Part shown: positions 9,460 through 58,304 of the stretch, piece by piece
How positions within the stretch are numbered: the stretch's first letter is position 1
How the letters are laid out: every line of letters starts with the position of its first letter
Assembly (NCBI RefSeq): GCF_014653785.1
Contig: NZ_BNAS01000002.1
Coordinates: 797,128-861,127, forward strand
Source: Promicromonospora soli
Lineage (GTDB): Bacteria; Actinomycetota; Actinomycetes; Actinomycetales; Cellulomonadaceae
DNA length: 64,000 nucleotides
Reading direction: 5' to 3'
Program-made: the position numbers and the translations under genes
Notes under the pieces: model-generated
What the model was told of the DNA's origin: nothing
Database searches by the model: none
The model's input: only the letters and a program-made list of their open reading frames with translations

Positions 9460-9513
9460 ATGGCTGAGCAGCTGAAGGTCGACGCCCGTCCGGCCACCGA
9501 CGGGCCGACGTGA
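9460..9513 (+). CDS. 17-codon mini-ORF overlapping the next gene by GTGA
   Basis: ATG at 9460 preceded by GAGGGGAGCT; it encodes MAEQLKVDARPATDGPT and stops at 9511-9513. The GTG start of the next gene is at 9510, so stop and start overlap as GTGA and the pair would be translationally coupled. The opening MAEQLKVD resembles the first residues of actinobacterial WXG100/ESX-type proteins, which suggests either a leader peptide or the remnant of a longer secreted partner. It is too short to assign, and it may simply position the ribosome for the second frame. Confidence 0.45.
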   Translation: MAEQLKVDARPATDGPT

Positions 9514-10145
9514 CACCGAGCGAGCTCATCGATCTGTGCGAGCGCCGGATCAACGAGCTGAGCCGCATACGTCAGGGGTTCGAGCACATCGGCCTGCCGG
9601 AGCGCGTCGAGGCCTTGGTCGACGACCTCCGTGCCACGGCGTCCGGCTGGGACGCCGCGATTGACAGCCCGCCCGCGGGGAATCCCGCGGCCGTCCGCGC
9701 CAACGCGCAGGCCGTCCGGGCCGCCGCGGCGGGCCTGCGCACCATGGAGAGCGTGTTGCGCGGCCATGCCACGGTGGTGCTCGAAGCGCAGGGCATCGAC
9801 GTCATGGCCAACACCCTCGACGACTACGCGACCGCCCTGGAGGCAGGGCAGGCCCGCCACGCCTCCGGTGCCGCCCGCCTCCGTGCCGCCCAGCAGAAAG
9901 TCGCCGGGCTCCCGTCGGTCATCGGCGACGCCGGGCCGGACGAGGTCGCGACGGCGTCGATGGCCGCGCTCGACGCCGCCTGCGCCGGGTACGCCGCCTG
10001 CCAGGACGCCTACCAGGCGGTGTTCGACGCCGAGGCAGCGCTCCGCGCCGCCGTGTCCGACGCCGGGCCCAGGCGCGGATCGTCGACGCCCCGCCCCGCG
10101 AAGGTCCGGCACCACATGCAGCAAGCCAGGGCCACGGTGAAGTAG
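9510..10145 (+). CDS. Helical hypothetical protein (possible WXG100/LXG-like)
   Basis: A 211-residue, Ala-rich, almost entirely helical protein without signal peptide or membrane span; no family was recognised. The pattern of long amphipathic helices (DLCERRINELSRIRQGFEHI, then ALVDDLRATASGWDAAIDSP with a W in a helix-turn-helix setting) recalls the N-terminal half of type VII secretion substrates, and it follows a mini-ORF with an ESX-like start, but no WXG motif or secretion tail is evident. The GTG start is chosen from the GTGA overlap. The last codons are AAG-TAG, and this TAG is part of the first 16-nt repeat unit. The distinctive C-terminal tail is PRRGSSTPRPAKVRHHMQQA. Confidence 0.6.
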   Translation: MTPSELIDLCERRINELSRIRQGFEHIGLPERVEALVDDLRATASGWDAAIDSPPAGNPAAVRANAQAVRAAAAGLRTMESVLRGHATVVLEAQGIDVMANTLDDYATALEAGQARHASGAARLRAAQQKVAGLPSVIGDAGPDEVATASMAALDAACAGYAACQDAYQAVFDAEAALRAAVSDAGPRRGSSTPRPAKVRHHMQQARATVK

Positions 10146-10185
10146 AACCGTGGCGAAGTAGAACCGTGGCGAAGAAGAAGCAGGG
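10138..10185 (+). repeat. CGAAGTAGAAC repeat, locus A (two units plus one degenerate)
   Basis: 16-nt units at 10138-10153, 10154-10169 (CGAAGTAGAACCGTGG) and a degenerate 10170-10185. The first unit supplies the TAG stop (10143-10145) of the preceding gene. There is no inverted copy here; a separate hairpin (10178-10206) follows. It belongs to the same family as 22920-23005, 47111-47214 and 57193-57297. Confidence 0.85.
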
Positions 10186-10206
10186 CGCCCGAGGGACGCC
10201 CTGCTT
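10178..10206. terminator. Terminator hairpin between convergent genes
   Basis: AAGCAGGGCG (10178-10187) pairs with CGCCCTGCTT (10197-10206), a 10-bp stem with a 9-nt loop. On the minus strand it is followed by CTTCTTCGCC. It separates the helical protein gene from the HNH gene ending at 10234. Confidence 0.75.
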
Positions 10207-10233
10207 CCTGGTGCTTCGGGGTAATGAGGCGGA

Positions 10234-22919: not shown

Positions 22920-23005
22920 CGAGATAGAACCAGGGCGAGATAGAACCCCAGCAACCGCTCGGGTTCTATCTCGCCCTGTTCTATCTCGCCAGAGTTCTAC
23001 TTCGG
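22920..23005. repeat. CGAGATAGAAC repeat, locus B (two units facing three inverted units)
   Basis: Plus units at 22920 and 22936. Inverted units run from 22962 to 23005. Arms 22920-22947 and 22962-22988 form a 27-bp stem with one bulged base around a 14-nt loop. The last inverted unit carries the TAG stop (22997-22999) of the histidine kinase gene. It lies between convergent genes, and CCCCGC precedes the first unit as at loci C and D. Confidence 0.9.
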
Positions 23006-27251: not shown

Positions 27252-28130
27252 GTGACAGTCACGAGTCCGCGCGTTCGAGCGCCAGAGTCCCGGGTCCCCA
27301 AGCCCGTGGTTCTGCGCGTCGTGCGCGCCGACTCCAGCTCTGCGGACGACCTGGAGACCGTGACCACCCAGCAGAACACCCCAGACTCCCCTTCCACCAC
27401 GACGCCGAAGTCGGCGGCGGAGCTCGCGATCGTGCCGGTCGCGGACGACGTAGACGTCGAGTCGGCAACCAAGCCCGGGGCCGAACCCGTGCCCGCGACC
27501 AGGCCACTCACAGTGGTCCGGGATGGGGCGGCGGACGCCGATGACGTAACCTCGCTGCCCGTGCGTACAGACCGGCCCAGGGCCACTCACGCGCGCAGGA
27601 ACGCACAGGTTTCGAAGAACGAAGAGTTCACCGCGTTCATGCGAGAGGCCAAGGATCCACTCCACCGGATGGCCTTCCTTCTGAGCGGTGATGCGCACCG
27701 TGCGGAGGAGCTCACCCAGCAGACCTTCGAGCGGTGCTACCGGCACTGGCACAAGGCCCGCCAGGGCGATCCGCTCGTCTACGCGCGACGCGTGCTGGCG
27801 AACCTGCGGATCGACGCCTGGCGCCGTACGCGGCGCGAGGTCCTGACCGGCCCCGACGAGCTGCCGCAGGACGACGTCCGCGTCTCCCGGCCCTCGGCTC
27901 GGATGCCGACCCGCACCGTTGACGATCGTGACGCCGTCGTGCGCGCTCTCCTGCGGCTCCCGGTGAAGCAGCGCCGGGTAGTGGTGCTGCGCCACCTCCT
28001 GGACCTTTCGGAGTCCGAGGTCTCGAACGAGCTCGGAATTCCCCTCGGCACCGTGAAGTCCACGGCCTCGCGCGGGCTCGCCCACCTGCGCGCGATTCTC
28101 GATCTCGATTCACTGGGCGGCAGTCGATGA
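27252..28130 (+). CDS. SigE-family ECF RNA polymerase sigma factor, module 2
   Basis: A sigma factor of about 292 residues (GTG 27252 chosen from promoter geometry; GTG 27360 would give about 256). Residues 1-120 are a long, poorly conserved, Thr/Ser/Pro and acidic N-terminal extension. The conserved part begins MREAKDPLHRMAFLLSGDAH, then ELTQQTFERCYRHWHKARQG (region 2) and LPVKQRRVVVLRHLLDLSESEVSNELGIPLGTVKSTASRGL (region 4). It is nearly the same as module 1 in region 4, showing common descent. The odd N-terminal extension is absent from module 1. The stop overlaps the membrane-protein gene by ATGA. Confidence 0.9.
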   Translation: MTVTSPRVRAPESRVPKPVVLRVVRADSSSADDLETVTTQQNTPDSPSTTTPKSAAELAIVPVADDVDVESATKPGAEPVPATRPLTVVRDGAADADDVTSLPVRTDRPRATHARRNAQVSKNEEFTAFMREAKDPLHRMAFLLSGDAHRAEELTQQTFERCYRHWHKARQGDPLVYARRVLANLRIDAWRRTRREVLTGPDELPQDDVRVSRPSARMPTRTVDDRDAVVRALLRLPVKQRRVVVLRHLLDLSESEVSNELGIPLGTVKSTASRGLAHLRAILDLDSLGGSR

Positions 28131-29485
28131 ACATGAGCCTCCCCGACGACGACTTCGTCGCCCGGGTCCGCGAGTCGGCGCACGCGGCAGTACCCGCGTC
28201 GACGCTGGACCTGGACAGCGTCCTGCGGTCGAGCCGTCGTAAGCACGCCACGCGGCGTGCGAGCGTCACGCTGGCCTCCACGCTTGCGCTCGCCACGGTC
28301 GGAGCCGGTGCGGCCGGTGCGCTGCCCGGTATCCCGGGCTTCTGGAGCAACAACCCGGTAGAGGTCACGCCCAGCGCGGCACCGCCGTCGACGTTCGACG
28401 AGGGCGAGGTCGACGTCGAACCGCCTGCGCCGTCGCCCACCGACATCCCGACGCCGGACCCGGCGGCGGAGCTCGCATACCTGGCGCCCGGCGTGCGCAC
28501 GGTGGCGCAGCCCGCGGCCTATCGCGTCGATGCGGACACCGCTGTGCTCGACCTCGGTCTCTCCGCCGGGGGTGGCGACCGCTATCTCGCGGTGGTGACC
28601 CTGGCGAAGATCGACGGCCGGCACAGCGCCACAGACCTGGAGGTCCTCGCGGGTGGCGACACCGCCCTCGAGAACCTCCGTGCGGGGAACCTCGGTGGAA
28701 CCCTGCTCTGGCGCGGCGTCACGTCCGACGCGATGGTCCTGCCGTCCGACGGCGGTCCGGCCCTCGTGTTCGGCTTCTCCTCCGGGGCCATGGAGGGAGA
28801 CCAGTTCCTGGTCTTCGACGACCCGCAGACCGATGGTGCCGCGGGCGCGCAGGGGGCGTCCGCGTCACCGGGTACCGGTTCGGACGGCGGTTCCGGCGAG
28901 ACGGGCGCGCCCGAAGCGGGCGCGTCGCTCCGGGTCACGCCGTTCGACGTGCTCGGCGACGGCAGCGTGTGGATGCGGGTCCTGCAGGTGGACCGCTCGA
29001 CGGCGGAGCCGCGCGGGTTCGTCTACTCGAACCAGGGCACGTGGAGCGCCTCCTGGTGCCGCAGCACCTCGCCCGAGTGCGCGGTCATCCACGACATCGC
29101 GGGCGAGACCGTGAAGAAGCCGAAGGCCGCAGCACCTGCGCCGATGGTCGCGAAGCTGGCTCCGATGCTGGTCGAGAACGCGCAGGCGAACGAGGTCCCC
29201 GCGATGGAGACCTGCGTGGCGCAGCGCACCGGCACGAGCTGGACGGCGCCGCCGCAGCTCACCGGCAAGGCGTTCTCGCGGGCACCGAAGGGTGTGGACG
29301 CCGACGTCTGGCGGCTGTGCCTGGTGGACATGAGCGAGGCACTGCAGCTCGCCTCGGCGGGCGAGATCGTGCCCGACGGCGAGGTGTCGCCCAGCCCGGC
29401 TCCCAGCAAGGAGCCGACCGAAGCTCCCGAGGACGGGGATCCCCTCGGCCTCGGTGCACTCCTGGAGGGACTCTTCGGGGGATAA
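28127..29485 (+). CDS. One-pass membrane protein coupled to sigma factor, module 2 (putative sigma regulator/sensor)
   Basis: A 452-residue protein. The cytoplasmic head MNMSLPDDDFVARVRESAHA (residues 1-44) ends in RRKHATRR and precedes one membrane helix (about 45-66), a Pro-rich spacer (PPAPSPTDIPTPDPAAE) and a large exported domain. Four cysteines in the exported half (SWCRSTSPECAV, METCVAQ, LCLVDM) may pair. Head sequence and topology mirror module 1, although the exported domains do not obviously align, so the two systems probably sense different signals. No HxxxCxxC anti-sigma motif was seen. The regulator role is inferred from coupling to the sigma gene. Confidence 0.75.
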   Translation: MNMSLPDDDFVARVRESAHAAVPASTLDLDSVLRSSRRKHATRRASVTLASTLALATVGAGAAGALPGIPGFWSNNPVEVTPSAAPPSTFDEGEVDVEPPAPSPTDIPTPDPAAELAYLAPGVRTVAQPAAYRVDADTAVLDLGLSAGGGDRYLAVVTLAKIDGRHSATDLEVLAGGDTALENLRAGNLGGTLLWRGVTSDAMVLPSDGGPALVFGFSSGAMEGDQFLVFDDPQTDGAAGAQGASASPGTGSDGGSGETGAPEAGASLRVTPFDVLGDGSVWMRVLQVDRSTAEPRGFVYSNQGTWSASWCRSTSPECAVIHDIAGETVKKPKAAAPAPMVAKLAPMLVENAQANEVPAMETCVAQRTGTSWTAPPQLTGKAFSRAPKGVDADVWRLCLVDMSEALQLASAGEIVPDGEVSPSPAPSKEPTEAPEDGDPLGLGALLEGLFGG

Positions 29486-29542
29486 GACTTCCCGGTCCGC
29501 GTCTCGTCTGGGGAGATGGCGTGGGCCGGGAACACATGAGCA

Positions 29543-29590
29543 GGCCGAGGCAGATTCTGGGGATCTGCCTCGGCCCGCTCTATTTTCTCA
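29543..29590 (+). terminator. Strong intrinsic terminator after module 2
   Basis: GGCCGAGGCAGAT (29543-29555) pairs exactly with ATCTGCCTCGGCC (29563-29575), 7-nt loop, followed by CTCTATTTTCTC. It also faces the end of the convergent excalibur gene. Confidence 0.92.
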
Positions 29591-29608
29591 GACTGGTTTC
29601 AGATGTGA

Positions 29609-34936: not shown

Positions 34937-35011
34937 GCGACAGAACTGTCGCGAGGTCTTCGCCGCCCGTTGGTCGAGCTTGTCGAGAACAGGGTCTCGA
35001 CAAGCTCGACC
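34937..35011. terminator. Twin hairpins with the TCGAGCTTGTCGAGA palindrome between convergent genes
   Basis: GCGACAG (34937-34943) pairs with CTGTCGC (34946-34952). GGTCGAGCTTGTCGAGA (34972-34988) is an exact 17-bp reverse complement of 34995-35011 with a 6-nt loop. Together they probably terminate both the helicase gene and the Gly-rich gene; the second hairpin is the intergenic member of the repeat family found inside the helicase frame. Confidence 0.85.
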
Positions 35012-35038
35012 AGCGAGGAAGCTCGACCAACGAGGAAG

Positions 35039-46339: not shown

Positions 46340-46343
<4 letters not shown>
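45354..46343 (+). CDS. livG: Branched-chain amino-acid ABC ATP-binding protein (LivG-like)
   Basis: A 329-residue ATPase. Walker A GPNGAGKTTFFNLLTG (about residues 86-101), GMVRTFQLTKALSRLTV in the Q-loop region, signature LSGGQRKLLEMARALM and Walker B IMLDEPMAGVNPALV are intact, and VEHDMHAV carries the H-loop. The first 50 residues are an unusual acidic, Thr/Val-rich extension (EVTEPETTVEALDTVERSDS) ahead of the normal start, and the C-terminus has about 30 extra acidic residues; most LivG proteins are about 255 long. It overlaps livM by 11 nt and livF by ATGA. Confidence 0.94.
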
Positions 46344-47104
<761 letters not shown>

Positions 47105-47110
47105 TCCCGC

Positions 47111-47214
47111 CGAAGTAGAACTGTGGCGAGATAGAACTGTGGCGAGATAGAACTCTGGCGCAACCCCTGGTCAGGGGTTGCGCCAGAGTTCTATCTCGCC
47201 ACAGTTCTATCTCG
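47111..47214. repeat. CGAGATAGAAC repeat, locus C (43-bp perfect palindrome)
   Basis: Plus units at 47111, 47127 and 47143; inverted units at 47183 and 47199. Arms 47127-47169 and 47172-47214 are perfect complements over 43 bp with a 2-nt loop, including a non-repeat centre CGCAACCCCTG. The three plus units put TAG at 47116, 47132 and 47148, one in each frame. It lies between convergent livF and the GH59 gene. Confidence 0.95.
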
Positions 47215-47226
47215 GCAGGGGGCTCG

Positions 47227-50200
47227 TCAGGCCTGGCCGTCGTCCGCCACGGCGAGCCAGCTCAGCGCAGGGGCCTCCGTGCCGCCGTCGTTCGAGACGG
47301 TGTAGGTGACCACTGCCGCGTCGGGCAGCGTGAACGTCCCCGAGACCACCGCCGACTGCCCCATGCTCCCGTTCGGGAAGGCCGCGGAGCCGACCGGCAC
47401 GGTAGTGACCGTCCCGTCCGCCGCCCCGGTCCACGAGACCGACGTAGCCATACGACGTGACCGCCCCGAGCCCGGGTTCCACCACTCGGTGTGCCCGGAC
47501 GACACCGTGTACGTGCCGGCGGGCAGCGTGAGCCGGTACTGCAGCGGTGTGCCCGTCCCGGCGGTGTACCAGCCGGTCTCACGCATCTTGTCGTACGGGT
47601 TCGTGTTGAGCAGCCCCTTCGCGCTGTACGACGCCGCCCGGCCCCAGCCGCGCTCGGCCGACCACGCGGCGTCCGCCTCGCGATTGAGCAACGGCCGGTC
47701 CTCAGCGTCGGCCCAGGCCCGCACGGCGGGGTACGCGACGGCGTTCGGAGCAGCCGGCGCGTTGGCGTCGATGAAGTACCGGAGCCCCTCGGGCACCACC
47801 TCGACGTATAGCGAGATCCGCAACGACGGGTCCTTGACGAAGGTCCCGTCGACCCGGACGAGGGCGTACGGGGTGTCGAGCGCACCCTCCGGCACGAACC
47901 ACGACACCTCGGCGTCGATCGTGGTCCCGGCCGCCGAGACGGCCCGGACGGTCCGAGGCAGGTCGGCAGCCTGCCCGACGGCGGTCGCCGCCCGGGCCGG
48001 TGCCTCGACCACCTTCACCGGACGCTCGGCCGCGTCGCCGAGCCGCACCTTGGCGCCGCCGGTCAGCACGTCGACGCCGTCGAGCGTGAACGTCCCGCTC
48101 GCCACCCGCACGGTGACGGTGTGCTCGCGCTGCTCCAGGCCACGGAGCCAGTACGACGTCTGTCGCGTGCCCACGGTGCCCACCTGTTCCGTGCGAGGCG
48201 TGCCGCCGTCGATCGTCACCTCGAGCGTCGCAGCACCCGTGGCGCCGAACAGGTTCAGCCCGGTACCGGTGAAGTCGACGTTCACGGACTGGCCGGTGCG
48301 CAGCACGTGCTGGGTCCGGTTGAAGTGCGCGAAGCCGGCCTGCGCGAAGGTGAACCCGTCCGGGTAGGCCAGGCGCGCGTCGGAGTCGTCGATCTTCTCG
48401 GACGCCCAGGCGTACCCCTTGACCGGAGTCACCGCGAGGTTGTCGTACCGGGTGTTGTAGAACCCGCTGGCCAGTGCGATGCGCCCGGAGAGCACCGGGT
48501 TGGCAGACGGGTCGACGTGCTGCACCAGCCGCGCGCCGTCCAGGTTTGCCGTGATGACGTTCTCCCGGGCCTCGACGGCCAGGGTGTGCCACGCGCCGCC
48601 GTCGAACTCCGCCACCGTGCCGGAGGCCACGACCGCGTCGAGCTTGCGCAGCTGCCACCGCCCGTCCTCGTGCACGCGCACGGTGTAGGTGGCCTGGTCG
48701 CCGCCGCGCGCGTACGTCTGGCGCACGCCCAGCCCGGCGAAGTTCTCGAGCGTGCCGTCCCGGTCCACCGCGTCGAGCTGGAAGTCCACCATGGCGGTGT
48801 AGTCGGCCCAGCGGTGGTCGCCGAGCACCGTGGACGGTGCCGCCGTCTGGAGCACGTCCTGCCGGCCGTTGCCCCACACGTTCCAGGTGAAGCCGCGGTT
48901 CTGGCCGTGGATCTGCTGCTGCAGCACGTTGCGGTGCGCCGCGTCGTCGGATCCGACCACCTCGAACGCGCCGTCCTGGTCGGCCGTGTACCTCGGGGTG
49001 CCGCCCCGCCGCTCCAGGTACGTCATCTCCCGCCCGCCGACGGTGGTCACCGGGTAGTCGTCGTACTCGAAGTTGTCCCGGTACGGCAGCTCGAGGATCG
49101 TGTCCTCGGCGTCGGGCGCGAAGTCGCCCGGTGCGTACTCCGCCGTCGTGCCGTGCACGCCGTCCTCGAGCGTCGACAGCGTGACGATCGAGTACGCGGG
49201 CACCTTCACTCGGTACACGTCGTGCTCGACGCCGCCGATCGTCTCCGAACGGACCGGCGCGTAGTAGCCGGTCTTCTGGAAGTAGTTGGCGTCGTACGCC
49301 TGGTCGGCGTCCGGGCCGCGCGTCTCCCACGCGTAGAGCGGCCGTCCCGCCGCGCCCAGGTCCGCCACCTTGACCTCGAAGTACCGGTCCGTGCGGGTGT
49401 TGTTGGCGTGCACCTGCGACCACTGCTCGTCGGCGTCGCTCTCGGCGCTCGCGGGCGTGCGGGCGGTGAGGACCGTGCGCGTCGACGTGTCGACGTTCGT
49501 GCCGCCGTCGCCCTTGGTGCCGTCGCCGCCGGTAGCTCCCTCGACGTACTCCCAGCCGTCCTCGACGAACTGGTGGAAGTGCCGCACCGCGACGAGGCCG
49601 ACGTCGCCCTCCCAGTAGCCGGACCACGGGTCGGAGGCCCGGATCAGGTGCTTGGGGGAGTACTGCGTGCCCTCGTACATGGCGCTGACGGCGGGCTGGA
49701 ACAGGAACGTCGTCATGTGCGCCGGGTCGCTGCCCGCGCCGCTCCAGCGGTAGGCGTTGATGAACCGGTCGGCGATGTCGGCGGCGGAGACGGTGCCGCC
49801 CACGCCGCCGCGGCCCGGGTCGGCCGCGATCCGGTACTGCGGGTCGATCATCGGGGCCACGCCCTCGGAGTACAGGATCTCCTTGCCGAACTCCTTGTTG
49901 AGCCGCGTGACGTTCGGGCCGCCCACGATGTCGTAGTGATAGCCGAGGGCGTCCACCTGTTCGAGCGCGGCCGGGTCGGCAAGGATGCGGGCGGCGATCG
50001 CGTCGCCCTCCCGGTAGGAGTCCAGGGCGACGATCTTGATCTTCGAGTAGTCGTAGCGGGCGCCCGGCGCCGCGGCGTCGCGCTCGAGCCACTGCGCGAA
50101 CTGGACCGTCCAAGCGAGCTCGGACGCCTGGTAGGTCGCGCCGCGCACCTCGTTCTGCGACGGGCTCATCCAGTCGAACTCGACGCCGAACGTGTCGTAG

Positions 50201-50817
50201 GCGGCGTCGATCGTCTCCTTGTACCACTGGTACCGCTTGGCCGGGTCGTTGCCCGTCCAGGACGGCTCGCCCCAGCGCAGCGCCTCGGTCTCGATGTCGG
50301 GGTTGATCGACAGCGCGTCGGCGATGAAGTGGAACCCCGCGCCGCGCAGCACGTTCGCGGGCTCGTCGGCGCTGCGCTTCGTGGCCGGCTCGGCGCCCGA
50401 CGAGCTGTTGCTGTCCGCCCCCAGCTCGACCTTGATGTGCTTGAGGCCCGCCCCGGTCTCGGGGTCGAACAGCATCCGCATGATCGCCCAGTAGGCGTCC
50501 GGGTTCTCCTCCTTGTAGTCGAGGAGCAGGTTCGACGTGTTGTTGCACGAGACGGACCCGAAGCCGCCGAAGGCGTTGTAGGGGCTGCCATCGGCGCGGC
50601 GTTCGACGTCGTCACCGTCGACCACGAGCTCCTTCCATGCGATCGACGGGTCGTCGAGGCGGAGCTCGGGAAGGGGCGCGTCGGTCGAGACCGCAGTGGG
50701 TGCGGACGCTTCGTCCGGTGCCGCTCCTGCCGGTGGAGCCAGGAGGCCGCCGGCTGCGAGGGTGAGGATGGCGGCCGTCGCGGCTCCCGCGGCCGTGAGG
50801 CGGTGGGTACGTGGCAT
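47227..50817 (-). CDS. Secreted GH59-type glycoside hydrolase (galactocerebrosidase-like), multidomain
   Basis: A 1196-residue exported enzyme predicted to release beta-galactose or related sugars. Signal peptide residues 1-33 (ATAAILTLAAGGLLAPPAGA). The clan A barrel (about residues 60-400) opens with FGGFGSVSCNNTSNLLLDY and holds the acid/base Glu in SPSQNEVRG (about 220) and the nucleophile in ILYSEGVAP (about 316), the GH59 pattern. A lectin-like beta-sandwich follows (about 640-830), then CBM-like (QREHTVTVRVASGTFTLDG), Ig-like and C-terminal beta domains. ATG 50817 is preceded by GGAGAG. An operator-like dyad TGATC-N6-GATCA lies 40 nt upstream. Substrate not determinable by eye. Confidence 0.82.
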   Translation of the reverse strand: MPRTHRLTAAGAATAAILTLAAGGLLAPPAGAAPDEASAPTAVSTDAPLPELRLDDPSIAWKELVVDGDDVERRADGSPYNAFGGFGSVSCNNTSNLLLDYKEENPDAYWAIMRMLFDPETGAGLKHIKVELGADSNSSSGAEPATKRSADEPANVLRGAGFHFIADALSINPDIETEALRWGEPSWTGNDPAKRYQWYKETIDAAYDTFGVEFDWMSPSQNEVRGATYQASELAWTVQFAQWLERDAAAPGARYDYSKIKIVALDSYREGDAIAARILADPAALEQVDALGYHYDIVGGPNVTRLNKEFGKEILYSEGVAPMIDPQYRIAADPGRGGVGGTVSAADIADRFINAYRWSGAGSDPAHMTTFLFQPAVSAMYEGTQYSPKHLIRASDPWSGYWEGDVGLVAVRHFHQFVEDGWEYVEGATGGDGTKGDGGTNVDTSTRTVLTARTPASAESDADEQWSQVHANNTRTDRYFEVKVADLGAAGRPLYAWETRGPDADQAYDANYFQKTGYYAPVRSETIGGVEHDVYRVKVPAYSIVTLSTLEDGVHGTTAEYAPGDFAPDAEDTILELPYRDNFEYDDYPVTTVGGREMTYLERRGGTPRYTADQDGAFEVVGSDDAAHRNVLQQQIHGQNRGFTWNVWGNGRQDVLQTAAPSTVLGDHRWADYTAMVDFQLDAVDRDGTLENFAGLGVRQTYARGGDQATYTVRVHEDGRWQLRKLDAVVASGTVAEFDGGAWHTLAVEARENVITANLDGARLVQHVDPSANPVLSGRIALASGFYNTRYDNLAVTPVKGYAWASEKIDDSDARLAYPDGFTFAQAGFAHFNRTQHVLRTGQSVNVDFTGTGLNLFGATGAATLEVTIDGGTPRTEQVGTVGTRQTSYWLRGLEQREHTVTVRVASGTFTLDGVDVLTGGAKVRLGDAAERPVKVVEAPARAATAVGQAADLPRTVRAVSAAGTTIDAEVSWFVPEGALDTPYALVRVDGTFVKDPSLRISLYVEVVPEGLRYFIDANAPAAPNAVAYPAVRAWADAEDRPLLNREADAAWSAERGWGRAASYSAKGLLNTNPYDKMRETGWYTAGTGTPLQYRLTLPAGTYTVSSGHTEWWNPGSGRSRRMATSVSWTGAADGTVTTVPVGSAAFPNGSMGQSAVVSGTFTLPDAAVVTYTVSNDGGTEAPALSWLAVADDGQA

Positions 50818-51238
50818 GAGGAACTCTCCGTCGTCTTTGACTGGTCGAGGAGAGCCTGATCGAACGTGATCAGTTATGACCGGATGGGTTGGTCCGGAGG
50901 TGCCCTCCGGCCTTGAAAGTACGGGGAGGTGACCGGAATGGTCAACGATGTGATCGATATTGTTTGGGTCGGTCTTCGTGCCTGGGTCCGCCGAATGGGG
51001 CGGGCGCCGACAAGGCTTCTTGATCCTGGGACCGCCGAATGGGGCGGGAGACGTGCGGCCGGCCTCGCTCACGCGCCCCAGGGGGCGCTCCGCTACGGCT
51101 TTACGGCCGGCCGCACGTCTCCCGCCCCATTCGGCTCTTCCTATCGCTCGCCTTCGCGGGTGGTTGGCGAGAGAAGACTGTCTGGTGAGAGTGGCAGTCG
51201 TGGGTGTACGTCGCTTGGTGTAGGTGTGCGTGTGGGTG
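50818..51238. other. Intergenic region upstream of the GH59 gene: operator-like dyad and large inverted repeat
   Basis: 421 nt. It contains the dyad TGATCGAACGTGATCA (50857-50872), a possible sugar-regulator operator for GH59, then GTGATCGATATTGTTTG (50951-50967), an AT-rich tract. GCCGAATGGGGCGGG (50990-51004) is followed by the 31-bp inverted repeat at 51034-51135. No open frame in it looks real. Confidence 0.6.
51034..51135. repeat. Perfect 31-bp inverted repeat with nested hairpin
   Basis: Arms 51034-51064 and 51105-51135 (starting GCCGAATGGGGCGGGAGACG) pair exactly. The 40-nt loop contains GCGCCCC (51073-51079) pairing with GGGGCGC (51082-51088). A third partial copy of the arm lies at 50990-51004. 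It follows the stop of the endonuclease gene (51239) and may end its transcript. Confidence 0.88.
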
Positions 51239-52534
51239 TCAGGGGTGGGTGAGGTCGGTCCAGGTGAGGCGGTGGTCGCTGCTCGGGAACGGGAAGACGC
51301 CGGTGAGGCGGGAGAGGGGGTCGGCGGCGGCCGGCCAGAAGACTCCAGCGTCGCGGACGCGCAGGTCGCGCGAGGGGAGCACGTAGTCGACCCGGAGGTT
51401 GCCCGGGGCGGTGTCGGCGAAGTCGGCCGTGTCGAGCGCGGGATCGCCTACGTGGTTCAGGTTCGCGCCGGCCTGCAGCTCGGCGGCCTCGGGCGCGCCC
51501 GCCGACGTCGGCTGCGGGTCGGTGACCCGCGGGTGGCTCAGCAGCTGGTGGATCGCGGCGTCCACGGAGTCGCCGTCGGCCGGGTCGGCGTTGTAGTCGC
51601 CCACGATCACGAACGACGAGCCGGGACGCAGACCGCCGCGGTGACCCTCGTCGTCGTACAGGTAGCGGGCGGCGCGGCCGCCGCGCACGTAGTCCGCCCA
51701 GAGCCGGATCTCGTCGTGGTTGCGCAGGCCGTTGCGGTCCTCGACGCCGTCGAACGACGGCGGGGTCGGGTGCGCCGCCAGCACGTGCACCGTCTCGTGG
51801 CCGACACGCACCGGCACGTCCCAGTGGGACTTGCTCGACAGCGGCAGCACCGCGAGCTCCTCGGCCGAGTACCAGTCGGCCGGGGCGTCGGTAGCCGGGT
51901 CGTCCGGCAGGAGCGCGCCCGGCATGTCCTGCCACTTGAAGCTCTGGAACGTGCGCACGCGGTCGTGCTGGATGGGGTACTTCGACAGCACGACCATGCC
52001 GTACTGCCCCGGGAAGAGGCCGAAGCCGAGCGCGTCGTCGCCGCCGCCCACGGTCCCGTTGTTGTTCAGGTCGAACCCGCTCGGGATCCCCGTGTTCGAC
52101 GGCGCCACGAAGGCGTAGGGGTACTCCACCGGCGTCCCGGTGCCCTGCGGCACCTCGAGGTAGTTCTCGCGGAACAGGTCCGCGGCGGCGTACGGGTCGA
52201 GGTCGCCCGAGTAGTCGAACTCGTTGAGCAGCACGATGTCGGGGTCGGCGTGCTGGATGACCTCCGCCACGGTCGCCGCCTGGGCGTCGTCGCCCGTCGA
52301 CAGGTCGGCGACGAGCTCGCCCTCCTGAGCCCGGTTGAGCGACAGGTTGTAGGTGGCGGCGCGCAGGGTCCGGTGTCCGGCGTCGGCCCGGTCCGCCGGC
52401 GTCGTGCCTGCCGAACCTGTGCCTGTCGAAGCCGTGCCTGCAGCGGCCGTGCCTGCCGAGGCGAGGAAGGCCCCGGCCAGCAGGGCTGCTGCCGCGGCCG
52501 CGGCCGTCAGGCGCGAGGGGGTACTGGCTCGCAT
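51239..52534 (-). CDS. Secreted endonuclease/exonuclease/phosphatase (DNase I fold)
   Basis: A 431-residue exported hydrolase of the EEP superfamily. Signal peptide residues 1-30 (LTAAAAAAALLAGAFLASAG), then a Gly/Thr/Ala linker. The fold starts TLRAATYNLSLNRAQEGELV; the metal site shows DIVLLNEFDY (Glu) and GDYNADPADG (Asp, Asn), with the catalytic His pair probably in AAHPTPP and SSDHRLTW. The order matches secreted actinobacterial EEP proteins, which may be DNases, phosphatases or lipid-acting enzymes; the substrate is unknown. AAGGAG is 5 nt before the ATG. Short Thr/Gly/Ala repeats after the signal peptide are encoded by GTGCCTGCC/CTGTCGAAG-type steps. Confidence 0.88.
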   Translation of the reverse strand: MRASTPSRLTAAAAAAALLAGAFLASAGTAAAGTASTGTGSAGTTPADRADAGHRTLRAATYNLSLNRAQEGELVADLSTGDDAQAATVAEVIQHADPDIVLLNEFDYSGDLDPYAAADLFRENYLEVPQGTGTPVEYPYAFVAPSNTGIPSGFDLNNNGTVGGGDDALGFGLFPGQYGMVVLSKYPIQHDRVRTFQSFKWQDMPGALLPDDPATDAPADWYSAEELAVLPLSSKSHWDVPVRVGHETVHVLAAHPTPPSFDGVEDRNGLRNHDEIRLWADYVRGGRAARYLYDDEGHRGGLRPGSSFVIVGDYNADPADGDSVDAAIHQLLSHPRVTDPQPTSAGAPEAAELQAGANLNHVGDPALDTADFADTAPGNLRVDYVLPSRDLRVRDAGVFWPAAADPLSRLTGVFPFPSSDHRLTWTDLTHP

Positions 52535-52838
52535 GACTGCTCCTTCTTCGGGTGTCGTGCCCTGGGAATCACGGCCGCCGTGCGTGGATGTCACGGCTCG
52601 CCGTGCGGTGGTGTGGTGCGCGGGCTGTCCGCGTCAGCCACCGTAGGGCGGCGTCGGTTCAGATGGGTGAACGGCGCATGAACAGCCGCGCGCCCGGTCC
52701 GCGGAGGTTCACGCGGGGTCGTGATCGAATCGTTGCGCCAGGGCTGCCGGCATGGCCGTTCCTGCCGATAGGTTTCCGGGGCGGCCCGGCCGGTCGCCAC
52801 GACGGCGTCCGCCGTCGTGCAGCGTGAGGGAAGAGCCG
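52535..52838. promoter_or_regulatory. Divergent region with a 10-bp hairpin before the septum-formation gene
   Basis: 304 nt between divergent genes. CACGACGGCG (52798-52807), 2-nt loop, CGCCGTCGTG (52810-52819), ends 8 nt before the AGGGAAG ribosome site of the next gene and could hide or expose it, or be an operator. Nothing else was recognised; promoters for both genes must lie here. Confidence 0.5.
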
Positions 52839-53387
52839 ATGAACCGCATTTTCCGCCCCGCCCGCCTGCTGACGGCAGCGGCCGCAGTGACCATCTCGCT
52901 GACCATGCTCACCGGTTGTGGTGCGTTCCTGGACGAGATCGTGTCGAACGGCGATGCCCCGCGCGACGAGCCGGGCGGCGAGGTCACCGCTTCCGCCGAG
53001 GCGGATGCCTTCGCGATCCTGAAGGGCGACTGCATCGACCTCGAGGCGCTCCAGGGCTACGGCGAGGCCGCGGAGGGCGAGGAGTACGAGGTCGAGTCGG
53101 TGCCCGTGGTGCCGTGCGCCGAGCCGCACACCGGCGAGGTGTATGCCGAGCTCGTCATGAAGACCGACAAGTTCCCGGGCGAGAAGGGCATGTCGAAGAA
53201 GTTCGACGAGTGGTGCTACGCCGAGTTCGGCAAGTTCGTAGGCATCTCCTACGACGAGTCGAGGTACGGCTACACCGGCTTCTACCCGACCAAGGACAGC
53301 TGGGAGCAGCTGGACGACCGCACTCTCCAGTGCATCGTCAGCTCCGAGGAGCCGTTCACGGGCAGCCTCAAGGGCGTCGCCGAGTAA
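52839..53387 (+). CDS. Septum-formation-domain lipoprotein
   Basis: A 182-residue lipid-anchored protein of the Septum_form type. The lipobox is LTGC (about residue 27). The mature domain begins FAILKGDCIDLEAL and has VPVVPCAEPHTGEVYAELVM, FDEWCYAEFGKFVG, YTGFYPTKDSWEQLDDRTLQCIV; the four Cys (DCID, PCAE, WCYA, QCIV) form the family's conserved pairs, and SRYGYTGFYPTK is its signature. Family members bear on wall or division in some actinobacteria, but the role here is unproven. ATG 52839 has AGGGAAG. The 3' end overlaps the MFS gene by 20 nt. Confidence 0.85.
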   Translation: MNRIFRPARLLTAAAAVTISLTMLTGCGAFLDEIVSNGDAPRDEPGGEVTASAEADAFAILKGDCIDLEALQGYGEAAEGEEYEVESVPVVPCAEPHTGEVYAELVMKTDKFPGEKGMSKKFDEWCYAEFGKFVGISYDESRYGYTGFYPTKDSWEQLDDRTLQCIVSSEEPFTGSLKGVAE

Positions 53388-54618
53388 CCCGTGCCGCACC
53401 TTCGCGCGCCGTAGCGCGTGGGGACGCAGCCCGCAGGTCCGCCGCGAGGACCGCCAGTGCGGCCAGCACGAACATCGCCCCGAACAGGGGCACCGTGCCG
53501 ACGCCGTCCGCGGCGACCACCCACGCCCCGAGCGCCGCCCCGCCGGCGATCCCGAGGTTGAAGACGGAGCTCGATATCGCGGACGCCGACTCGACGGCGC
53601 CCGGGGCGACCTGCATGCACAGGAACGACAGGGCCGGCGGGATCGCGCTGAACGCGACGCCGAACAGGGCCAGGCCCACCAGGGCGATCGCGGGGACGTG
53701 CCCGAGCGCCCAGAGCAGCATGAGCGCCCCCGTCAGCAGCCCGAGGGAGGCGAGCACCGCGTGCCATGGCCGCCTGTCGAGCACCTGGCCGATGAGGACG
53801 GTCGCGGCCACGCCCGCCGCCCCCTGCCCGAGCAGCAGCATGCTGAGGTACTTGTCTGGAAACCCTGCGGTCTCCAGCAGGAACTGCGTGACGAAGGTGA
53901 TCATGATGAATCCGCCCGTCACGAGCAGCGCCGTGACCACCATGAGCACCACGAAGCGGCGCATGCTGGGATCCGTGCCGCGGGCGGTCCCGCCCTGCTC
54001 CGGGGTGACGTCCGGCATCGCGACCGCCATCGCAACGCACGCTGCCAGGCTGACCACCGAGAACAGCAGGAACGCGGTGCGCCAGCTCGTCTGCTGACCC
54101 ACCCAGGTGCCGAGCGGGACGCCGAGCACGGGCCCGAGCGAATTGCCGATGGTGAGGCGAGCGATCATCTTGCCGCGCACGGCGGGGGCGAACAGGCTCG
54201 CGGCCGCAGGCGCGACGGCCGCCCAGAAGAGCGCCTGCCCCAGCGCGGTGAACATGCGCGCAGCCATCAGGTCGGCGTAGCCGATCGCGAACGCGGACCA
54301 CAGCGAGCCGATCGCGCAGACGGCGGTGGTCGCCGCCAGGACGTAGCGGCGCGGGAACCGGCGCGTCAGGCGCGAGAGCGGCAGCGACGCGAGGAAGACG
54401 ACGGCGGCATAGGCCGTGACCAGCAGCCCGATCTCGGACGTGCTGCGGCCCAGGTCGGGGGCGATGAGGGTGAGCAGGCCGCCCGGCAGGTTCTCGGCGG
54501 TGACAAAGGTGAACGCAGAGACCGACAGCGCGACGAGCGCGGCGACCGCGCGGCGCTGGTTCACGGGAGAGTGCTGGGTCGCAGACTGGGCGGCTGCGGG
54601 GGGCGTGGTCGCGGTCAT
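53368..54618 (-). CDS. MFS transporter, DHA1 (Bcr/AraJ-like) exporter
   Basis: A 416-residue integral membrane protein with 12 spans, probably an exporter of drugs or sugars. The loop 2-3 motif appears as LSRLTRRFPRRYVLAAT, and TFVTAENLPGGLLTLIAPDLGRSTSEIGLLVTAYAAVVFL is typical for the DHA1 group with CmlR, AraJ and similar. The C-terminal half carries DRRPWHAVLASLGLLTGALM. ATG 54618 follows GGAGAA; the longer frame to 54687 adds a non-hydrophobic segment. Its stop lies 20 nt inside the convergent septum-formation gene, so full-length transcripts would be partly antisense to one another. Confidence 0.92.
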   Translation of the reverse strand: MTATTPPAAAQSATQHSPVNQRRAVAALVALSVSAFTFVTAENLPGGLLTLIAPDLGRSTSEIGLLVTAYAAVVFLASLPLSRLTRRFPRRYVLAATTAVCAIGSLWSAFAIGYADLMAARMFTALGQALFWAAVAPAAASLFAPAVRGKMIARLTIGNSLGPVLGVPLGTWVGQQTSWRTAFLLFSVVSLAACVAMAVAMPDVTPEQGGTARGTDPSMRRFVVLMVVTALLVTGGFIMITFVTQFLLETAGFPDKYLSMLLLGQGAAGVAATVLIGQVLDRRPWHAVLASLGLLTGALMLLWALGHVPAIALVGLALFGVAFSAIPPALSFLCMQVAPGAVESASAISSSVFNLGIAGGAALGAWVVAADGVGTVPLFGAMFVLAALAVLAADLRAASPRATAREGAARVTRRRP

Positions 54619-54750
54619 GCTGTTCTCCGGCTGGTCGGCGGGCGTGGGCTCACCCGGACGACGAACTGGTCCGGCGGACGACGACAAACGTACGCGGCCT
54701 CGAACCGATTCTACGAACGCATTTCCGGCGCGGATCGCGAACTAAAAATG

Positions 54751-54773
54751 TGTCGTAAGCAACATTGTCGTAA
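54751..54773. promoter_or_regulatory. Direct TGTCGTAA repeats in the MFS/M6 divergent region
   Basis: TGTCGTAA at 54751-54758 and 54766-54773, 15 nt apart in an AT-rich stretch (TAATAT at 54771-54776 could be a -10). They sit between the MFS start (54618) and the protease start (54870) and may bind a regulator of one or both. Confidence 0.45.
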
Positions 54774-54869
54774 TATTTCCCTGGTTTCCTCCTACTTGGG
54801 ACATAGGCGTCCCGCAGGTCCGGCGAATCACCTCCTCGTCCCGGACACCGCACTCTTCACGGAGGAAAC

Positions 54870-57176
54870 ATGAACCCACGCATCTGTGCTGTCGGCGCGG
54901 GAGCTGCTCTGCTGCTCTCCGCCGCCGTCGTACCGATCACCGCTTCGGCAGCGCCACCGGTCGAGGAGCCGCCGCAGCAGGCGGCGCCCGCCAAGGAGGA
55001 CAACCGTCCGGACGCCCTCGCCGAGAAGCAGACCGAGAAGCGGCAGCGCGCCGTGGACCTGGTCGCCACCGGTGAGGCGAAGGTCGAGACCCGCGGCACG
55101 GGCGCCCACGCCTCGAAGGTCGTGGAGATCGCGCCGAACGAGTTCGTCGAGTACGGCGTCGAGGAGACGGCTCAGCTGTTCAGCATCCTCGTTGAGTTCG
55201 GCGACCAGGCCGACGAGCGCTTCCCGGACGCCGCCGCAGGTCCGCTGCACAACACGATCCCGGAGCCGGCCGACAACGACAACTCCACCTACTGGGAGCC
55301 CGACTTCTCCAGCGAGCACTTCAAGGCGATGTTCTTCACCGGCCTGGAGGACCAGGGCGGGGAGTCGTTCCACGACCTTTACGACGAGATGTCGTCGGGC
55401 CGGTTCGACCTGCAGGGCGACGTGTCCGACTGGGTGACCGTGCCGTACAGCACGGCCTCGTACGGCACCACCGAGTCTGGCACGGACATGACGCGGTTCG
55501 TCCAGGACGCCGCGGACGCCTGGTACGAGCAGCAGGTCGCCGCGGGCAAGACCGCCGCGGAGATCGACGCATACCTCCAGTCGTTCGACGTCTGGGACCG
55601 CTACGACATGGACGGCGACGGCATCACCGCCGAGCCGGACGGCTACATCGACCACTTCCAGGCGATCCACGCGGGTGAGGGCGAGGAGGCCGGCGCACCC
55701 GAGTCGGCCATCTGGTCGCACCGCTGGGCCGTAAACCAGGGCGGCTTCGGCTCGGACGGCCCGGCCGCTTTCGAGAAGCTCGGCGGTATCAAGATCGGTG
55801 ACTCCGATCTCTGGATCCGCGACTACACCACGGAGCCGGAGAACGGCGGTCTCGGCGTCTTCGCGCACGAGTTCGGCCACGACCTCGGCCTGCCGGACTA
55901 CTACGACACCGCTGGTGGCGAGAACGGCACCGGGTTCTGGAACCTCATGAGCTCCGGCTCGTGGATGGGCCACGGCGACGGCACCATCGGCACCACGCCG
56001 GACCACATGGGCGCCACCGAGAAGCTCTTCCTGGGCTGGCTCGACTACGAGGTGGTGGAGCCGGGCGAGACCGAGCGGGTCAAGCTGGGCCCCTCGTACC
56101 ACGCCACGACGCGGGAGCAGGCGGCGATCGTGACCCTGCCGGACGGCGTCGCGAAGATCGACCTGGGGGTTGCGCCGTTCGACGGCCAGTTCGCGTACTC
56201 GGGTCAGGCCGACGACCTGAACAACACGCTCGCCTCGCCGTCGTTCACCGTGCCCGCCGGCGGCTCGCTGGCCGCCAAGGTCCAGTACGCCATCGAGGCG
56301 GACTACGACTATGCGTTCGCTGAGGTCTCCACGGACGGCGGCGGCTCGTGGACGTCCCTGCCGACCAACCTCTCGACGAACGAGGACCCGAACGGCACCA
56401 ACCCGGGCAACGGCATCACCGGCAGCTCGGCCGGCGCATGGGTCGACCTGACGGCCGACCTCTCCGCGTACGCGGGCCAGACGGCGTCGGTCCGGTTCCG
56501 CTACTCGACCGACGGCGGCACCACCGAGACCGGCTTCATGGTCGACGACGTCGCCGTGGGCACCGCCCTGACCGAGGACTTCGAGGACTCGTCCGACTGG
56601 ACCGTCGACGGCTTCATGACGATTGCCGCCGACGGGACCTACGAGGTCGAGTACTCCCACTACTACGTGGCCGAGAACCGCGTGTACGGCGGGTACGACG
56701 CCACGCTGAAGACCGGCCCGTACAACTTCGGCTGGCTCTTCAGCAACGGCAACCGGGTGGAGCACTTCCCGTACCAGGACGGCCTGCTGATCTGGTACGT
56801 GAACTCCCTGTACGGCGACAACAACGTGTCCGCCCACGCGGGTGGCGGCCAGGCGCTGCCGGTCGACGCGCATCCCAAGTCGCTGACCTGGTCGAACGGC
56901 GCGATCGCCCGCAACCGGATCCAGACGTACGACGCCACGTTCGGCCTGCAGAAGACCGACCCGCTCTCGCTGCACCGCGAGCTGTCGGCGACCGAGTCGG
57001 CCTCACTGATGACGGGCAAGCAGAAGCCGGTGTCGAAGTTCGACGACACCAACCCGGAGGCGTACTACGACCCGGCGAACCCGGGTAACTCCGTACTGGT
57101 CGGCGGCACCGGAACCACCATCAAGGTGCTGTCGCAGGACACCTGGTCGGGCAACATGACCATCCAGGTCAACTGA
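54870..57176 (+). CDS. Secreted M6-family metalloprotease (immune inhibitor A type)
   Basis: A 768-residue extracellular zinc protease. Signal peptide residues 1-27 (CAVGAGAALLLSAAVV), then a propeptide. The zinc motif HEFGHDLGLPD is near residue 334, with the third ligand in SSGSWMGHGDG about 30 residues on. The Asp/Gly-rich YDMDGDGITAEPDGYIDH is a calcium loop, and DYNYAFAEVSTDGGGSWT and FRYSTDGGTTETGFMVDDV are the MAM/VEG-like repeats of InhA proteases. GGAGGAAAC precedes the ATG. Such enzymes degrade host or competitor proteins; here probably nutritional. It is followed by repeat locus D. Confidence 0.95.
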   Translation: MNPRICAVGAGAALLLSAAVVPITASAAPPVEEPPQQAAPAKEDNRPDALAEKQTEKRQRAVDLVATGEAKVETRGTGAHASKVVEIAPNEFVEYGVEETAQLFSILVEFGDQADERFPDAAAGPLHNTIPEPADNDNSTYWEPDFSSEHFKAMFFTGLEDQGGESFHDLYDEMSSGRFDLQGDVSDWVTVPYSTASYGTTESGTDMTRFVQDAADAWYEQQVAAGKTAAEIDAYLQSFDVWDRYDMDGDGITAEPDGYIDHFQAIHAGEGEEAGAPESAIWSHRWAVNQGGFGSDGPAAFEKLGGIKIGDSDLWIRDYTTEPENGGLGVFAHEFGHDLGLPDYYDTAGGENGTGFWNLMSSGSWMGHGDGTIGTTPDHMGATEKLFLGWLDYEVVEPGETERVKLGPSYHATTREQAAIVTLPDGVAKIDLGVAPFDGQFAYSGQADDLNNTLASPSFTVPAGGSLAAKVQYAIEADYDYAFAEVSTDGGGSWTSLPTNLSTNEDPNGTNPGNGITGSSAGAWVDLTADLSAYAGQTASVRFRYSTDGGTTETGFMVDDVAVGTALTEDFEDSSDWTVDGFMTIAADGTYEVEYSHYYVAENRVYGGYDATLKTGPYNFGWLFSNGNRVEHFPYQDGLLIWYVNSLYGDNNVSAHAGGGQALPVDAHPKSLTWSNGAIARNRIQTYDATFGLQKTDPLSLHRELSATESASLMTGKQKPVSKFDDTNPEAYYDPANPGNSVLVGGTGTTIKVLSQDTWSGNMTIQVN

Positions 57177-57192
57177 CCCCTCCCCGATCCCG

Positions 57193-57297
57193 CCGAGGTA
57201 GAACTGGGGCGAGATAGAACCCTGGCGAAGTAGAACCGCAGCGCGAAGCTGTAGTTCTACTTCGCCAGGGTTCTATCTCGCCACAGTTCTACCTCGG
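57193..57297. repeat. CGAGATAGAAC repeat, locus D (44-bp arms, all frames stopped on both strands)
   Basis: Three plus units (57194, 57210, 57226) face three inverted ones (57254-57297). Arms 57193-57236 and 57254-57297 are complementary over 44 bp with one mismatch, loop 17 nt. Plus-strand TAGs at 57199, 57215 and 57231 and minus-strand TAGs (CTA at 57257, 57273, 57289) fall in all three frames of each strand. The next gene (57324) starts 27 nt after it. Confidence 0.93.
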
Positions 57298-57323
57298 CGA
57301 ACGCGGGCACTACGCTCGAACGC

Positions 57324-58304
57324 ATGACACACCTGCGATGGGGCATCCTGGCGGCCGGCTGGATCGCCGAGAGCTTCACATCAGACCTGAACGACAACGG
57401 ATTCACCGTGCAGGCGGTGGGGTCCAGGTCCCTGGAGAAGGCGCGCACCTTCGCCGACCGTTTCGGCATCCCGACGGCGCACGGCTCCTACGAGAACCTC
57501 GTGAACGACCCCGAGGTCGACATCGTCTACATCTCCACGCCGCACCCGTTCCACGCCGAGGCCGCGAAGCTGGCGCTGGAGGCCGGCAAGCACGTGCTGG
57601 TCGAGAAGCCGTTCACGCTCAACGCGTCCGAGGCCCAGGAGGTCATGGACCTCGCCGAGGCAAAGGGGCTCGTGGCGCTCGAGGCCATGTGGACCCGGTT
57701 CCTGCCCCACATGGCGCGCGTCCGGGAGATCATCGAGTCGGGCGTGCTCGGCGAGGTGCGGACCCTGCTGGTGGACCACACCCAGGACCTGCCCGACGAC
57801 CCCGCACACCGCATCAACGCCCTGGCCCTCGGCGGCGGCTCCCTGCTCGACCTAGGCATCTACCCTGTCTCGTTCGCATGGGACCTGTTCGGCGAGCCGC
57901 TCACCGTGCAGTCACACGCCACGTTCAAGGAGACCGGCGCGGACGCCACCATCGCCACGATCTTCGGGTACGACGGCGCACGGGTCGCCACGACCATCTC
58001 GGCGTCGGACACCCGGGGGCCCAACCGGGCCTCGATCCTGGGTACCGAGGGCCGCATCGAGATCGACGCCGTCTGGTACAGCCCGGCGGTGGTGCACGTC
58101 TACGACGCCGCGGGCACCGAGACCGAGACCTTCACCGGTGAGGTGATCGGCCGCGGCATGCAGTTCCAGGCCGCCGAGGCGGAGCGTCTGGTCGCGGCCG
58201 GCCAGCTCGACAGCCCGCTGCTGCCGCGTGCGGAGACGGTGGCGATCATGGGCACGCTGGACACGATCCGCGAGCAGATCGGCCTCAAGTACCCGGGAGA
58301 GTAG
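57324..58304 (+). CDS. Gfo/Idh/MocA-family NAD(P)-dependent oxidoreductase
   Basis: A 326-residue dehydrogenase acting on sugars or related polyols. The Rossmann fold opens RWGILAAGWIAESFTSDL, followed by AVGSRSLEKARTFADRFGIP, STPHPFHAEAAKLALEAGKHVLVEKPF (EKP motif with the catalytic Lys) and the C-terminal sheet GGGSLLDLGIYPVSFAWDLFGEP with the conserved Asp and Tyr. The usual family length is 330-350. The repeat element ends 27 nt before its ATG and no clear promoter is visible in the rest, so its transcript may start within or just after the palindrome. Converges with the amino-acid ABC cluster (4 nt gap). Confidence 0.92.
   Translation: MTHLRWGILAAGWIAESFTSDLNDNGFTVQAVGSRSLEKARTFADRFGIPTAHGSYENLVNDPEVDIVYISTPHPFHAEAAKLALEAGKHVLVEKPFTLNASEAQEVMDLAEAKGLVALEAMWTRFLPHMARVREIIESGVLGEVRTLLVDHTQDLPDDPAHRINALALGGGSLLDLGIYPVSFAWDLFGEPLTVQSHATFKETGADATIATIFGYDGARVATTISASDTRGPNRASILGTEGRIEIDAVWYSPAVVHVYDAAGTETETFTGEVIGRGMQFQAAEAERLVAAGQLDSPLLPRAETVAIMGTLDTIREQIGLKYPGE

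Follow-up and report, generated by a model that had tools for sequence, protein, structure and literature searches.

Hairpin elements built from a 16-nt unit lie at the 3' ends of genes in Promicromonospora soli and in several of its relatives. With a probability of roughly 60%, we suggest that they are dispersed 3'-end hairpin cassettes that bound convergent transcripts and that probably serve as barriers to exonucleases and to readthrough, a function drawn from their sequence. The elements are placed at gene ends, have the potential to form hairpins and carry symmetric arms, and at many orthologous gene ends in sister species other hairpins are found.

The elements were recognised in a 64,000-nt stretch of the P. 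soli genome, referred to here as the window. The initial annotation had reported a 16-nt unit common to four loci (at 10138, 22920, 47111 and 57193), facing inverted units at three of them, and a position mostly between convergent genes. All four loci do contain the unit; facing units are found at loci B, C and D and locus A is without them, and A, B and C lie between convergent genes while D lies between co-directional ones. With up to three mismatches, the 16-mer matches the window 26 times, compared with a mean of 8.5 and a largest value of 16 in 100 dinucleotide shuffles. Locus C (47111..47214) consists of three plus-strand units, an apex palindrome and two minus-strand units, with the apex stem (47159..47182) joining the innermost units. 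The palindrome claimed here, perfect over 43 bp around a 2-nt loop, is confirmed, as the arms 47127-47169 and 47172-47214 pair with 0 mismatches; the outermost left unit (47111-47126) is partnerless. The predicted RNA fold has an energy of -98.1 kcal/mol, against a shuffle mean of -41.0 (z -13.7). An ABC-transporter ATPase gene (46340..47104, plus strand) has its stop 6 nt upstream of locus C, and a GH59-like gene (47227..50817, minus strand) converges on it. Species differ in the gene on the right of the locus (47104-47227; L124), whereas a hairpin is retained at the gene end on the left, so that a rearrangement breakpoint lies at or adjoining the element.

Locus D (57191..57299) has three plus units facing three minus units within a co-directional gene pair, and an M6-type metallopeptidase gene (54870..57176, plus strand) ends ahead of it. 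The 44-bp palindrome with one mismatch described previously is present, but it lengthens to 52-bp arms (57191-57242 and 57248-57299) with 3 mismatches once more mismatches are tolerated; its RNA fold scores z -15.4 relative to shuffles. Locus B (22920..23004), with two plus units facing three minus units, is imperfect, having 22-bp arms with 1 mismatch plus an outer unit offset by 1 nt, and it is the outermost unit that provides the stop triplet of the right-hand gene (22997-24049, minus strand). At locus A (10138..10169, plus strand) there are two tandem units and no facing arm. Gene 9510-10145 takes its stop codon (10143-10145) from the TAG of the first of these, and an unrelated hairpin (10177..10207, plus strand) lies 3' of both units; the locus is a remnant with a single arm, next to another hairpin. 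The earlier statement that units occur just after stop codons needs correcting in two cases, locus A and the right-hand gene of B, where the stop is part of the unit. The CCCGC motif noted before the first unit at B, C and D shrinks, over the loci compared, to a conserved YGC in a C-rich spacer. At another place in the window, site E (34971..35012), an unrelated hairpin (TGGTCGAGCTTGTCGAG...) lies between convergent genes, and the orthologous place in P. panici has a 16-mer element. Separately, site F (29486-29608), 3' of gene 28127-29485, contains a pair of successive hairpins; their sequence is conserved in all 12 of the sister species, and they have no Rfam match at the gathering score; site F is a candidate structured RNA or regulatory 3' UTR.

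The 682 units taken from 122 clusters, with up to three mismatches tolerated, give the consensus CGARRTAGAACNNNRG, which is not self-complementary and is without a GT(A/G)G-headed palindrome. Its CGA, TAG and AAC positions are near-invariant, and the G at position 8 varies least (present in 680 of 682 units). At the RR pair, GG, AG and GA account for all but six cases, and positions 12-14 are variable, taking mostly one of eight triplets (TGT, CAG, TCT, CGT, CGC, TGC, CCT and TGG). An arm has from 1 to 6 tandem units, and the units face inward, as a minus unit is found ahead of a plus unit in 0 of 135 clusters. Both arms are present in 102 of the 122 clusters, the left alone in 12 and the right alone in 8, and the outer ends of the elements are conserved as YGCCGA...TCGGCR. 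The conservation of CGA..TAG is not accounted for by hairpin function alone. Binding of a protein to the unit would fit a strict CGA..TAG beside a variable NNN, and the conserved core hints at a putative sequence-reading factor.

Placement relative to genes was determined with a purpose-written, simple codon-model gene caller trained mainly on Promicromonospora. There are 135 distinct clusters, 122 in named loci and 13 in further loci of the P. soli genome, of which 93 are convergent, 37 co-directional and 5 at locus edges; 0 are divergent and 0 are inside genes. For comparison, gaps of at least 30 nt in the named loci number 236 co-directional, 103 convergent and 102 divergent (n = 441). Because the named loci were fetched by a two-unit pattern they are biased to multi-unit elements, but such fetching does not select for position. 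The share of P. soli itself is 40 loci, 30 convergent and 10 co-directional, among the matches listed, which exclude 41 of 141. A facing stop codon lies within 40 nt of 131 of the 135 clusters, on both sides in 74, and none was called for 4. Elements have 201 gene ends within 40 nt of them; in 158 the stop comes ahead of the element, at a median of 11 nt, in 40 it is the first unit that supplies the stop triplet, and in 3 the second (TAG in 42, TAA in 1). Stems scoring at least 12 occur in 61 of 65 convergent gaps and 26 of 28 co-directional gene ends with units, in 25 of 44 convergent gaps and 45 of 235 co-directional ends without units, and in 2 of 101 divergent gaps. Strong stems are a general feature of gene ends here, extending beyond the ends that bear units. 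As a separate observation, two contig ends of P. thailandica (L056 and L078) have an identical right flank (648 nt, 100%), a partly shared element and different left flanks, for which a recent duplication, recombination at the hairpin or an assembly effect are candidate explanations.

The unit is numerous and patchily distributed. The strict genome-wide pattern CGARRTAGAACNNNGG has 141 matches in the 5.38-Mb genome and 0 in the reversed control. Across the 13 genomes of the genus that were compared (G000 being this genome, G008 P. panici and G011 P. thailandica), strict units with TAGAAC number 141, 3, 0, 54, 22, 63 and 0 in G000 to G006 and 0, 325, 7, 49, 161 and 5 in G007 to G012, so that the unit recurs in several other Promicromonospora genomes with copy numbers from 0 to 325. 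Among 46 genomes sampled outside the genus, G022 has 30 matches and all others have 0-2. When a sequence collection was searched for tandem pairs of units, at least 94 stretches matched; all matches listed are from Promicromonospora, and the species among them are panici, thailandica, sukumoe, iranensis and sp. AC04.

Counts of TAGAAC and TAGTC units across the 13 genomes show that species dialects are present. G007 has 0 TAGAAC units and 298 strict TAGTC units of the form CGARRTAGTCNNNNGG, together with 283 tandem CGARRTAG matches at 16-nt spacing, and G004 has 88 TAGTC and 22 TAGAAC units. Elsewhere, TAGTC units number 19 in G012 and 2-16 in the other ten genus genomes (reversed controls 0-4), and they are a minority in the TAGAAC-rich genomes (16 in G000, 12 in G008 and 9 in G011). 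Two further genera of the family bear CGAGGTAG units with a 20-nt period, having TAGAAC tails in G022 and TAGGCAAC-like tails in genus g21; the g21 loci inspected were six from G079 with facing arrays and one from G062 that is one-armed. With loose spacing and a pattern that excluded 16-nt spacing, CGAGGTAG pairs have a match in 194 of 396 genomes across the order. The outliers belong to g21 (55 in G079, 18 in G062 and 12 in G215), followed by a fourth, G389, with 7; the remainder have at most 6 per genome, and the reversed control gives at most 4. TAG is kept in the other dialects examined, one of these searches having demanded TAG by design. For 25 clusters of other dialects or genera, the convergent, co-directional and divergent counts are 4, 3 and 2 in G022, 4, 4 and 2 in G007, and 2, 4 and 0 in G004. 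The 4 of 25 that lie between genes called divergent, by a gene model trained mainly on Promicromonospora, count against strict 3'-end placement there. Hairpins beginning CGAGGTAGAGCGCCTGTCC were also seen at L052 and L097; their start equals CGAGGTAG, their tail is different, and they are possibly a further dialect.

Syntenic DNA from 12 sister genomes (50-60 kb from ten and 35-40 kb from two) shows that many species have a different hairpin at the gene ends corresponding to B, C, D and E. At locus D, TAGAAC units are found in this genome and P. thailandica, a collapsed form (GCCGAAG-TTCTA-CTTCGGC) in P. panici, a degenerate one in G003, the TAG-TC dialect in G004 and G012, a GTCAGACG-type hairpin in G010, G006, G005, G009 and G002, and others in G001 and G007. 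At locus C, the orthologues in G000, G008, G010 and G005 have TAGAAC units, those in G004 and G012 the TAG-TCC dialect (degenerate in G012) and those in G011, G002 and G009 a GTCAGACG-type hairpin (N-interrupted in G009); G003, G001, G006 and G007 are of other kinds. Site E has a GTCGAGC hairpin in this genome, G004 and G012, and TAGAAC units in P. panici and G010. In counts that omit loops of 30 nt or more, a stem scoring at least 11 is absent at locus B in 5 of 13 genomes (G010, G009, G011, G004 and G007), at site E in 4 of 12, at locus C in 1 of 12 (G006, where the loop of a long hairpin exceeds the limit) and at locus D in 1 of 13 (G007, with a score of 10). The GTCAGACG hairpin is itself repeated, with both-strand matches of 74 in G005, 63 in G006, 40 in G010, 21 in G009, 20 in G008 and 0-9 in the others. 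GTCAGACGNNCAGGTCAC hairpins, seen at L174-L179 and among these matches, are a second repeat family at gene ends, with the highest numbers in G005 and G006.

The two arms of an element resemble each other more closely than neighbouring units do. Mirror units have the same variable triplet in a fraction of 0.47 of outermost and 0.48 of innermost pairs (102 sites), against 0.17 and 0.09 after shuffling, and adjacent units of the same arm share it in 0.21 of 458 pairs. At 34 co-directional sites, a wobble bias indicating selection at the RNA level is absent (G·U-type versus A·C-type mismatches 96:97), and the sense strand folds no better than the antisense strand (Wilcoxon p 0.50). Base-by-base selection for RNA pairing does not explain the symmetry of the arms, and the equal mismatches point to copying of arms at the level of DNA. 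Two ortholog pairs differ at 13 base pairs; both partners changed in 6 of these, and 5 of the 6 went from Watson-Crick to Watson-Crick. Template switching is described in PMC8794818 as making and maintaining hairpins, and switching of the DNA template between arms would fit the symmetric changes, the collapsed perfect forms and the absent strand bias.

From where the elements lie, and from the way in which they alternate with other hairpins, we infer that they act at RNA 3' ends. In the mechanism that we propose, the cassette is a long inverted repeat whose arms are 1-6 inward-pointing tandem units; it begins some 11 nt beyond a stop codon, or provides the stop itself, and often fills the gap of a convergent gene pair. 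Once transcribed, the unit arrays would fold into one very stable stem, which may form and protect mRNA 3' ends by blocking both 3'->5' exonucleases and readthrough into the opposing gene. Termination itself would be brought about by Rho or by a U-tract-poor hairpin. The arms would be kept alike by DNA template switching, and units may spread from site to site through copying or conversion by a putative enzyme.

This barrier function has to be weighed against the idea that the elements are repeated but otherwise ordinary intrinsic (Rho-independent) bidirectional terminators, which we regard as improbable. They are stable hairpins shortly past stops and between convergent genes, and PMC12207403 describes, from Term-seq in Streptomyces, which are likewise GC-rich actinobacteria, hairpins after genes that are U-poor, unusually long and stable, with Rho or processing probably playing a larger part. 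However, the tails after our hairpins have a mean of 1.02 T in the first 10 nt, compared with 3-4 of 10 in that account and 2.26 at other strong hairpins of co-directional ends (n = 31). A U-tract is lacking (TTTT in 1 of 218 tails), the 3' side of the element is G-rich, and this family differs from the Streptomyces terminators further in being one repeated sequence. A scan of 12 kb with promoter and terminator consensus patterns gave nothing above chance (3 terminator-like sites versus a mean of 2.6). With the U-tract missing, a barrier guarding ends made by Rho or by processing fits better than intrinsic termination of the textbook kind. Of the termination or message stabilisation proposed in the initial annotation, a 3'-end role is supported by the stop adjacency, the strong hairpins at B, C and D and the alternative hairpins, and the case for classical intrinsic termination is weakened. 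It is less improbable, though still unlikely, that the elements are non-autonomous MITE- or REP-like elements moved by a putative enzyme, with gene ends as a tolerated or targeted landing place and a hairpin that has no role for the host. This reading is favoured by copy numbers that are high but patchy (0 in three sisters, 141 here and 325 in another sister), by presence/absence switches at orthologous sites and by the conserved outer ends. Against this, neutral insertion is not expected to fall a median of 11 nt from stops or to alternate with other hairpins, and none of three candidate mobilisers fits. RAYT (Y1_Tnp, PF01797) and reverse transcriptase were each found in 0 of 13 genus genomes, with the RAYT control matching E. 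coli and 4 others of 14, and both are rejected. IS110 occurs in 4 of 13 (G002, G003, G007 and G011) and is absent from this genome and from G008, the richest in TAGAAC units; its presence is unrelated to unit copy number, and it too is rejected. REP-type mobility in the strict sense, raised at the outset, is not supported, given the lack of a RAYT/Y1 transposase in these 13 genomes and a unit that is no palindrome.

Two other readings give the unit itself the main role, and both are very doubtful. A DNA-recognition word akin to Neisseria DUS or Haemophilus USS would, by analogy, account for the dialects (TAGAAC versus TAGTC), and PMC3630211 describes Neisseriaceae DUS as a short word with dialects that forms facing, terminator-linked hairpin pairs at gene ends. 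Intragenic DUS are common in that description, however, whereas 0 of our 135 clusters are intragenic; the arms, which hold as many as 6 units in tandem, are also unlike DUS, and there is no known link to uptake. Alternatively, the TAG in each unit could be a translational backstop, the 16-nt period covering all three frames to catch readthrough. The gene ends that use the stop triplet of the first or second unit agree with this, as does the retention of TAG in other dialects within the design of those searches. But position 8 is G in 680 of 682 units even though TAA also stops, and TAA (2 units) is rarer than the non-stop variants TGG (9) and CAG (14); moreover, the first TAG is in frame for just 38 of the 158 ends that have their own upstream stop. 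On position-8 conservation and frame counts, we reject the backstop as the main function.

The statement in the initial annotation that the repeat matches none known from actinobacteria agrees with Rfam and with the papers listed by searches of open full texts, none of which, by titles, abstract starts and passages, describes the 16-nt unit. No Rfam match was found in the window at the gathering score, and a permissive search of 47000-57400 gave 10 sub-threshold matches, 9 of them to microRNA precursor models. REP/BIME elements, as presented in PMC2817692, are similar in being extragenic, of high copy, patchy among relatives, arranged in composite inverted arrays and hairpin-forming; here, by contrast, the unit is no palindrome, has no GT(A/G)G head and no RAYT, and the arms are made of tandem 16-nt units. 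The survey of stem-loop-containing sequence families in 40 bacterial genomes (PMC2267715) similarly has repeated families with a common stem-loop. Its group of high-GC Firmicutes includes Corynebacterium diphtheriae and two species of Mycobacterium, and in its passages no relation of these families to the Promicromonospora unit was seen. Since the elements resemble both REP/BIME and terminator-associated uptake words and lack a defining feature of each, we class them as dispersed palindromic gene-end repeats.

Beyond the barrier function, we tentatively raise a wider possibility, to which we give less weight. Interchangeable hairpin cassettes at gene ends in this bacterial family (CGARRTAG dialects, GTCAGACG, GTCGAGC and TTGAGTGC) may swap in place, and a cognate factor other than RAYT, reverse transcriptase or IS110 may recognise the CGARRTAG units and copy them. 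Units of CGAGGTAG are still present, at a 20-nt period, in both related genera, one of which has this tail and the other a different one. If our interpretation is right, message-closing hairpins would be swappable as repeat cassettes with species dialects, and not merely slowly evolving single sequences. The family would then provide a natural experiment on what 3' ends need in high-GC genomes (a hairpin, but not a U-tract), and would also inform how perfect stems arise and persist.
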